A stretch of 64,000 nucleotides of DNA, from positions 1,342,501 to 1,406,500 of the forward strand of contig NZ_CP011924.1 of NCBI RefSeq assembly GCF_000238315.3. The letters run 5' to 3'. Source of the DNA: Pseudoalteromonas piscicida. Lineage in GTDB: Bacteria > Pseudomonadota > Gammaproteobacteria > Enterobacterales > Alteromonadaceae. Every line of letters starts with the position of its first letter. Within the stretch, counting starts at the first letter, position 1. The notes beneath the pieces were generated by a model that did not search any database, was not told the origin of the DNA, and saw nothing but the letters and a program-made list of their open reading frames with translations. Positions 2,828-5,260 of the stretch are shown one piece after another. Position numbers and translations under genes: made by a program.

Positions 2828-3046
2828 ATGGCGAAAGAAGACGTAATTGAAATGCAAGGCACGGTCCTTGACACGCTACCAAACACAATGTTCCGTGTTG
2901 AACTAGAAAATGGTCACGTGGTTGTTGCACATATTTCTGGAAAAATGCGCAAAAACTACATCCGTATTTTGACTGGTGACAAAGTTACTGTTGAAATGAC
3001 GCCTTACGACCTATCAAAGGGACGTATTGTCTTCCGTGCTCGTTAA
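2828..3046 (+). CDS. infA: Translation initiation factor IF-1
   Basis: Binds the 30S A site during initiation. The 72-residue product is a single S1/OB fold and matches IF-1 almost residue for residue ([11 protein letters not shown] start, [10 protein letters not shown] core, RIVFRAR end). An AAGAGG ribosome-binding site lies upstream, though with a long spacing. The gene sits between the N-degron transferases and clpA, the order usual in gammaproteobacteria. Its last six codons (VFRAR and stop, 3029-3046) are the first bases of a 252-bp tandem array, so fragments of the infA tail recur eight more times downstream. Confidence 0.98.
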
Positions 3047-5260
3047 TCTGCGTGTGTAGATTTATACTAAGTTGATGCCGTAAACTCGTTGATACCCAAG
3101 CGACTTCAAAATGCTGATGTTACTTAGGTATACCAAGTTCATTCAAGCAATTGGTATACACGAACGACTAGCACTGAGTTTGAGAGACGGTAATACCGCA
3201 TCAAACTGAGTGATAACAAAAAGCCCAGCTATTCTGGGCTTTTTGTTATTCTAACCCCACCGTTCAAAGGGAGCATCATGGTCTTCCGTGCTCGTTACTC
3301 TGCGTGTGTAGATTTATACTAAGTTGATGCCGTAAACTCGTTGATACCCAAGCGACTTCAAAATGCTGATGTTACTTAGGTATACCAAGTTCATTCAAGC
3401 AATTGGTATACACGAACGACTAGCACTGAGTTTGAGAGACGGTAATACCGCATCAAACTGAGTGATAACAAAAAGCCCAGCTATTCTGGGCTTTTTGTTA
3501 TTCTAACCCCACCGTTCAAAGGGAGCATCATGGTCTTCCGTGCTCGTTACTCTGCGTGTGTAGATTTATACTAAGTTGATGCCGTAAACTCGTTGATACC
3601 CAAGCGACTTCAAAATGCTGATGTTACTTAGGTATACCAAGTTCATTCAAGCAATTGGTATACACGAACGACTAGCACTGAGTTTGAGAGACGGTAATAC
3701 CGCATCAAACTGAGTGATAACAAAAAGCCCAGCTATTCTGGGCTTTTTGTTATTCTAACCCCACCGTTCAAAGGGAGCATCATGGTCTTCCGTGCTCGTT
3801 ACTCTGCGTGTGTAGATTTATACTAAGTTGATGCCGTAAACTCGTTGATACCCAAGCGACTTCAAAATGCTGATGTTACTTAGGTATACCAAGTTCATTC
3901 AAGCAATTGGTATACACGAACGACTAGCACTGAGTTTGAGAGACGGTAATACCGCATCAAACTGAGTGATAACAAAAAGCCCAGCTATCGTTTGAAACTT
4001 TTTATTCTAACCCCACCGTTCAAAGGGAGCATCATGGTCTTCCGTGCTCGTTACTCTGCGTGTGTAGATTTATACTAAGTTGATGCCGTAAACTCGTTGA
4101 TACCCAAGCGACTTCAAAATGCTGATGTTACTTAGGTATACCAAGTTCATTCAAGCAATTGGTATACACGAACGACTAGCACTGAGTTTGAGAGACGGTA
4201 ATACCGCATCAAACTGAGTGATAACAAAAAGCCCAGCTATTCTGGGCTTTTTGTTATTCTAACCCCACCGTTCAAAGGGAGCATCATGGTCTTCCGTGCT
4301 CGTTACTCTGCGTGTGTAGATTTATACTAAGTTGATGCCGTAAACTCGTTGATACCCAAGCGACTTCAAAATGCTGATGTTACTTAGGTATACCAAGTTC
4401 ATTCAAGCAATTGGTATACACGAACGACTAGCACTGAGTTTGAGAGACGGTAATACCGCATCAAACTGAGTGATAACAAAAAGCCCAGCTATTCTGGGCT
4501 TTTTGTTATTCTAACCCCACCGTTCAAAGGGAGCATCATGGTCTTCCGTGCTCGTTACTCTGCGTGTGTAGATTTATACTAAGTTGATGCCGTAAACTCG
4601 TTGATACCCAAGCGACTTCAAAATGCTGATGTTACTTAGGTATACCAAGTTCATTCAAGCAATTGGTATACACGAACGACTAGCACTGAGTTTGAGAGAC
4701 GGTAATACCGCATCAAACTGAGTGATAACAAAAAGCCCAGCTATTCTGGGCTTTTTGTTATTCTAACCCCACCGTTCAAAGGGAGCATCATGGTCTTCCG
4801 TGCTCGTTACTCTGCGTGTGTAGATTTATACTAAGTTGATGCCGTAAACTCGTTGATACCCAAGCGACTTCAAAATGCTGATGTTACTTAGGTATACCAA
4901 GTTCATTCAAGCAATTAGTATACACGAACGACTAACACTGAGTTTGAGAGACGGTAATACCGCATCAAACTGAGTGATAACAAAAAGCCCAGCTATTCTG
5001 GGCTTTTTGTTATTCTAACCCCACCGTTCAAAGGGAGCATCATGGTCTTCCGTGCTCGTTACTCTGCGTGTGTAGATTTATACTAAGTTGATGCCGTAAA
5101 CTCGTTGATACCCAAGCGACTTCAAAATGCTGATGTTACTTAGGTATACCAAGTTCATTCAAGCAATTGGTATACACGAACGACTAGCACTGAGTTTGAG
5201 AGACGGTAATACCGCATCAAACTGAGTGATAACAAAAAGCCCAGCGACGCTGGGCTTTTA
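3029..5260. repeat. 252-bp tandem array, nine units, infA 3' end plus terminator
   Basis: Units begin at 3029, 3281, 3533, 3785, 4037, 4289, 4541, 4793 and 5045, exactly 252 bases apart; the last is cut at about 216 bases. Each has the last infA codons, a GTATACCAA...TTGGTATAC inverted repeat, a 12-bp near-perfect inverted repeat enclosing CGGTA-A-TACCG, and an intrinsic terminator. Units are nearly identical. In units 2-9 the infA stop TAA is TAC. Unit 4 has lost the terminator's right arm, and unit 8 has two substitutions (near 4917 and 4934). The array fills the space between convergent infA and clpA. I see no long open frame in it. Confidence 0.97.
5234..5259. terminator. Bidirectional terminator closing the array
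   Basis: The last unit ends in a perfect AGCCCAGC...GCTGGGCT stem flanked by an A run and a T run, so it can stop both infA-side and clpA-side transcripts. Its loop (GAC) differs from the CTATT loop of the internal copies, so it may be the ancestral single-copy terminator. Confidence 0.8.

Follow-up and report, generated by a model that had tools for sequence, protein, structure and literature searches.

Tandem repetition of the 3' end of a gene has been described at the tyrT locus of E. coli, where K-12 MG1655 carries 3.1 copies of a 178 bp unit that repeats the 3' end of tRNA-Tyr and where rttR and tpr are annotated. The array reported here lies between infA and clpA of Pseudoalteromonas piscicida, within the 64-kb stretch of DNA that was analysed (the window), and like the tyrT repeats (rtT/RttR RNA, tpr) it is a short tandem array whose unit combines the 3' end of the gene upstream with a structured stretch. 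The first-pass annotation of the window had drawn this comparison, and inspection of the K-12 locus upheld it. However, the upstream gene is a tRNA at tyrT but infA here, and the E. coli copies lie behind tyrT/tyrV whereas these are flanked by two convergent protein-coding genes and carry a terminator hairpin in every intact unit. RtT of Rfam gave no match in the window at the gathering score and was not among the 32 matches to E = 5 in 2700-5400; there are no tRNA genes in the 64-kb window, and the tail that is repeated is that of infA. The array thus shares the tyrT design, in that the 3' end of the preceding gene is repeated in tandem, but it does not belong to the RtT family.

Two other kinds of element invite comparison. 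BIME/REP elements are palindromic repeats of intergenic regions, able to terminate transcription in either direction, and OppZ and CarZ are 3'-UTR-derived sRNAs that exert feedback on their own mRNA. The infA units resemble the former in being palindromic intergenic repeats with the potential for two-way termination, but they are not dispersed, as all full copies in the genome sit in one array. They resemble the latter in having a conserved, structured 3'-UTR with a predicted Rho-independent terminator directly 3' of a coding gene, as is expected of the source of such an sRNA; the differences are that the infA element is tandemly multiplied and that a pairing with the start of its own mRNA is only a lead. 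A link between BIME/REP and rtT has been reported (PMC2965389), as have sRNAs that derive from a 3'-UTR and act back on their own mRNA (PMC7398697). Among the literature matches listed, as far as those records go, no such array is described; the searches did not include Pseudoalteromonas by name, and absence from print is not established. We regard the locus as a gene-tail array built on a conserved infA 3'-UTR RNA, tyrT-like in design but different in sequence and gene. It is a second design of the tyrT type, here on a protein gene: the conserved structured 3'-UTR of an essential translation gene has been amplified into tandem modules that are retained across a clade of marine bacteria.

Architecture and history of the infA-clpA array

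The source of the repeated 3' end is infA (2828-3046, plus strand; IF-1 domain by Pfam), and the convergent neighbor is clpA (5278-7548, minus strand). Pfam identified IF-1, ClpA-type AAA domains and ClpS in this neighborhood, with Leu/Phe and Arg transferases upstream. Tandem Repeats Finder reported one array there (3014-5259, period 252, 8.9 copies, 98% match, score 4359), and alignment of units delimited at 3029 + 252n, with unit 2 (3281-3532) as the reference, agreed with the earlier reading of nine 252-bp units, as assembled, running from 3029 in the last infA codons to the clpA-side terminator at about 5260. The earlier placement of the start inside the last six codons of infA was also correct, as unit 1 (3029-3280) begins with the last five sense codons and the stop and continues through the structured 3'-UTR, the terminator and the junction. 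All units are on the plus strand. Units 3 (3533-3784), 5 (4037-4288), 6 (4289-4540) and 7 (4541-4792) equal unit 2 exactly, making five of nine units identical, and unit 8 (4793-5044) has two substitutions. Unit 1 differs from the reference by a single base in the infA stop, which is TAA there and TAC in units 2-9. Unit 4 (3785-4036) had been singled out as the exception with regard to the terminator, and its nine differences indeed all lie in the terminator, within unit positions 205-217. Unit 9 (5045-5260) diverges from position 202 on, where the clpA-side terminator variant takes over. The junction between units (3245-3280, plus strand) evolves fast and contains drifted infA codons (TCAAAGGGA...), with homology to infA recognisable to about 15 nt upstream of the unit start (TCAAAGGGA).

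A 151-base query (E <= 10) found nine full copies in the P. piscicida genome (G000), all in the array, and otherwise only matches of 14-33 nt; a dispersed repeat was rejected on this ground. A mobile origin was rejected as well, with no plasmid match and with 10 phage records matching over only 45 nt at the terminator. An assembly artefact is unlikely because units carry private differences and 2-4 units occur at the same place in other species; the assemblies of the array-bearing relatives comprise 2, 2, 2, 8 and 30 contigs.

The genus was surveyed with one genome per species. The infA gene was found in 108 of 108 genomes and the downstream stretch was taken for all, with the whole infA-clpA interval on one piece in 102. 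Six of these 102 intervals contain the array (G000 9 units, G072 4, G045 4, G075 3, G034 3 and G018 2), with unit periods of 252-270 and with the hairpin of the last unit adjoining clpA in all six. In the other 96 (62-524 bp), a comparison by shared 16-mers, which old diverged copies could escape, detected no such repeat. The earlier suggestion of a copy-number-variable locus holds between species (2, 3, 3, 4, 4 and 9 units). Among the six genomes without clpA on the same piece, G071 has at least three unit starts (the third interrupted), G040 has at least two before a contig end, G083 has one interrupted unit and no countable copy number, and three more (G073, G103 and G102; loci L153, L209 and L210) show no repeat in the visible part of the interval. 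The G071 and G083 units (loci L168 and L165) are both interrupted by other DNA at an identical position, after TGATGTTACTTA; this DNA might, as a guess, be an insertion sequence. A covariance model built on columns 1-146, run with strict filters at which weak matches are lost, matched 11 of 108 genus genomes, and all 35 matches listed were at the infA locus or on a contig with its clpA side. At family level, in an even sample of 147 genomes from 52 genera and with the same strict filters, it matched only the window's own genome. A first DNA search of the genus, in which 7 candidates were scored per genome, provided leads and not counts, and a 41-base pattern scan of genome contigs, which may leave out near records, returned no match.

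A midpoint-rooted clpA tree was built from 960 bp and 27 rows, which comprise the 11 RNA-bearing genomes and 16 further selected ones. In it, G083 and the eight genomes with the array form one clade of nine species (97/91), with single-copy G046 next outside (99/96) followed by single-copy G098 (89/95). The distant G040 (clpA fourfold difference 55%) has the derived junction AGCATCATG in common with the others, which makes a single origin the simplest account. The array therefore probably arose once; a loss in G046 is conceivable. The first-pass annotation had proposed recent expansion or ongoing homogenization. The likeness of units within species bears out homogenization, but the common junction and the clpA tree date the array to the ancestor that G040 shares with the other members, or earlier, so it is not solely a recent expansion.

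Units of one species resemble each other more than they resemble those of most other species, and in G000 (except unit 4), G045, G072 and G075 this includes the junctions. The RNA part changes far more slowly than the junctions (8.6% vs 61% between G000 and G045). Two different, exactly adjacent 14-bp deletions explain the majority G000 unit and unit 4, and both forms would then derive from a longer unit of about 266 bp, as in G034, with each deletion leaving 252 bp. The TAC of the inner units is common to G000 and G072, whereas G034, nearer to G000 by clpA, has TAA. Units 1-2 of G071 (L168) are a mosaic in which one junction is of the G034/G000 type and the next of the G072/G075 type, and this suggests either that lineages have exchanged sequence or that old variants have persisted next to each other. 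Because of the TAC/TAA pattern and the two junction types in G071, exchange seems to be both old and continuing. Founding by recombination at a shared TCAAAGG near the clpA end was considered and rejected because single-copy G046 has no TCAAAGG there.

Fold and conservation of the 3'-UTR RNA

The RNA of 3044-3254 folds at -67 kcal/mol (z = -5.9; equalled by 0 of 200 shuffles), and the inverted repeats and terminator hairpin form in the computed fold as described earlier. Comparison between species modified that description, in that the helix GGTATACC...TTGGTATAC is not backed by it while the pairing of TATACTAA with TTAGTATA is. A consensus fold of 23 rows has 56 pairs, with 99.3% of cells able to pair. 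Seven of the 56 pairs are changed on both sides, against a shuffle mean of 0.8 (0 of 500 reach 7) and 0-4 in slid controls, although it should be noted that the counted structure was derived from the same alignment, which favours this result. The two-sided changes sit in a long-range helix (3063-3070 with 3151-3158, plus strand; columns 35-42 and 126-133) and in a pre-terminator hairpin (3172-3212, plus strand; columns 148-156 with 182-190) in which four pairs are changed on both sides. Changes in the central hairpin (3092-3131, plus strand; columns 64-80 with 89-105) are one-sided only. The helices at the coding tail and a small hairpin after the stop have no comparative support because they either never change or show only losses.

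The first 58 nt after the stop are unchanged relative to G000 in G034, G075, G072, G018 and G071 and differ at 1 position in G045, 4 in G046, 7 in G040 and 21 in G098. For comparison, the clpA fourfold difference to G000 is 8.5% in G034, 14% in G075, 20% in G072, 23% in G045, 36% in G018, 52% in G046 and 71% in G098. In the six closest species with the array, these 58 nt show 0-1 differences, and the 32 positions of the terminator block show 0-5. One caveat is that infA too evolves slowly, with a fourfold difference of 2.7% in G018, as does its 5' flank (20 differences in 290 in G018 and 95 in 302 in G046). The conservation is thus that of a slow locus and regulatory region and is not unique to the 3'-UTR, and part of it may belong to the locus.

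Each intact unit ends in a hairpin of an A-run, a GC stem and a T-run (3213-3249 in unit 1), a predicted bidirectional intrinsic terminator that could stop transcripts of both convergent genes, infA and clpA. A simple terminator scanner did not flag the unit hairpins, probably because their U-runs pair into the stem. A scan of 2600-5400 for sigma-70-like promoters found one, upstream of infA, where 5.4 were expected, and none in the units. A promoter in each unit was rejected on this basis, and since the units have no promoter-like site, the inner units are probably reached by read-through from infA. A TATACT box in the unit was also considered as a promoter, but it co-varies with its helix partner in other species, which pairing explains better. 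As a candidate counterpart of tpr, which encodes a small basic protein within the E. coli repeat, units 2-9 have an ATG followed by 13 codons behind AAAGGGAG. This mini-ORF (MVFRARYSACVDLY in G000) was rejected as a general feature because its start and stop vary between species, the start being ATA in G045, ATC in G034 and ATT once in G071. The element was defined here as an infA 3'-UTR RNA and is covered by no Rfam family at the gathering score, nor does any family reach that score within the 64-kb window. Known RNA families gave only sub-threshold matches and were rejected; the best, the rimP leader (31.5 bits against a cut-off of 47), covers the hairpin and terminator on the minus strand.

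Proposed use of the repeated units

The sequence and the fold both look selectively preserved, and for this reason the array is probably a working RNA or terminator array and not junk. The account that we propose, and hold with about even confidence, is that it consists of copies of an infA 3'-UTR RNA plus bidirectional terminator, reached by read-through and kept as working modules. The infA 3' end would be a folded RNA element made up of the coding tail, about 190 nt of 3'-UTR and a bidirectional intrinsic terminator. This element would have been duplicated in tandem in an ancestor of the nine-species clade, after which unequal recombination or slippage, we infer, altered the copy number and homogenized the copies. 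Read-through from the infA promoter would carry transcription into the units in the infA direction, and each unit entered by polymerase would yield one more 3'-UTR RNA and one more chance of termination before transcription runs antisense to clpA. The copies were probably retained because each is a working RNA-plus-terminator module. Against this account, units 2-9 would depend on read-through of terminators that look strong, and unit 4 has lost its terminator.

Thirteen inner units were compared, each with unit 1 of its own species; units 3, 5, 6 and 7 of G000 and unit 2 of G075, which add no new RNA sequence, were left out, as were unit 4 of G000, because of its terminator deletion, and the copies in G071, G040 and G083 that are broken. 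With the structure taken from unit-1 rows only, 12 of 51 distinct inner-unit differences fall in paired columns, against 28.3 expected, and 8 pairs are broken, against 18.5 expected (P = 0.001). Single-sequence folds of G046, G040 and G018 gave 16, 24 and 25 paired-column differences (34.3, 34.0 and 32.6 expected) and 8, 13 and 12 broken pairs (20.6, 20.4 and 20.3 expected). The inner units therefore seem to be constrained too, because differences between units avoid paired positions. G000 unit 4 and G040 unit 2, both outside this comparison, speak against constraint, and the helix at the infA coding tail is broken in unit 2 of both G018 and G040. Gene conversion from a selected unit 1 could also cause the similarity of the inner units.

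The first-pass annotation had offered a terminator bank and an RNA source as possible uses. As a terminator bank, the units would be serial bidirectional terminators that keep infA and clpA transcripts apart, with the rest of each unit carried along. The hairpin that ends each intact unit between convergent genes fits this account, as does the position of the last one next to clpA in the six complete arrays. However, the near-constant first 58 nt lie outside the terminator, the compensatory changes sit in other helices, 96 of 102 genus intervals manage without such an array, and one unit has no hairpin. Because conservation reaches well past the terminator hairpin, the evidence leans toward a structured RNA with a terminator and argues that the RNA itself does something. 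The bank is a tenable though unlikely explanation.

Under neutral repetition, unit 1 alone would work, as the infA 3'-UTR, and unequal exchange and conversion would account for the copies. The fluctuating copy number, the mosaic array of G071 and the close likeness of units and junctions within the four species named above fit this reading; against it, differences between units avoid paired columns and at least two units are present in eight of nine clade members (the ninth not being countable) over a clpA fourfold divergence of up to 55%. We consider it doubtful. A DNA-level element, with the hairpins acting as cruciforms or protein sites, for example at replication-transcription encounters, is very improbable: the unit folds well as single-stranded DNA (z = -5.3) and the two strands fold equally well on the ten unit-1 rows alone (plus -47.8 vs minus -48.0 kcal/mol), but the plus strand gives the better consensus when all 23 rows are used (-46.4 vs -34.6, or -32.1 vs -22.9 without the terminator), G-U changes are tolerated on the infA strand in the supported helices, and there are no full copies elsewhere in the genome.

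The related species, with 1, 2, 3, 4 and 9 copies, form a natural series that lends itself to direct measurement of how repeated 3'-UTR RNAs or serial terminators are used.

Candidate pairing with the infA start and other observations

One lead concerns the infA start. The sequence CGTGTGTAG, just after the infA stop (3051-3059, plus strand), is complementary to CTACACATG in the start region (2822-2830, plus strand), and the post-stop CGUGUGUAG can pair with CUACACAUG at the start, a pairing that is present in the minimum-energy fold of the whole mRNA and has a probability of about 0.23. The 3'-UTR RNA may pair with its own infA start (CGUGUGUAG with CUACACAUG) and damp IF-1, in which case the array would be tunable in dosage, with read-through multiplying the anti-start RNA, and its length would determine how strong the feedback on this essential initiation factor is. 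We consider this model improbable. The 9-nt complementarity between UTR and start is not clearly above that of shuffled UTRs (P = 0.17). Of the 26 genomes with CTACAC before the ATG, 20 have GTGTAG no more than 20 nt from the stop, as opposed to 0 of the 82 others. However, this association may merely follow descent, and a genus-wide coupling of leader and 3'-UTR was rejected: a lineage permutation over seven leader classes and 22 UTR clusters, a weak test across lineages, gave P = 0.20 for a wide region and 0.049 for a narrow one, and in the narrow test a cluster's own leader was the best of seven in only 8 of 22.

The six bases before the infA ATG (2822-2827) fall into seven lineage classes within a near-constant context, CGCT....ATGGCGA, and the CGC and GCG around the start codon are able to close a small hairpin. 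In several other species, among the genomes with CTAAAC (e.g. L120, L140 and L161), a different long hairpin, GTTTATTAAATGTAATT...AATTACATTTAATAAAC, precedes the terminator and is possibly another type of structured infA 3'-UTR.

A scan of 404 kb (17 stretches of 20 kb and the window) found other tandem repeats, on which no claim about further gene-tail arrays is based. One of the repeats in the window is a second tandem array at 55611-56936, with 12 nearly identical copies of a 110-bp unit. It is preceded by an ORF of 323 aa (54530-55501) that has the look of a REP-type transposase by eye, with no Pfam match. Elsewhere, the 110-bp unit occurs as a lone 94% copy at G000:C1:1145714 and as two weaker partial copies.
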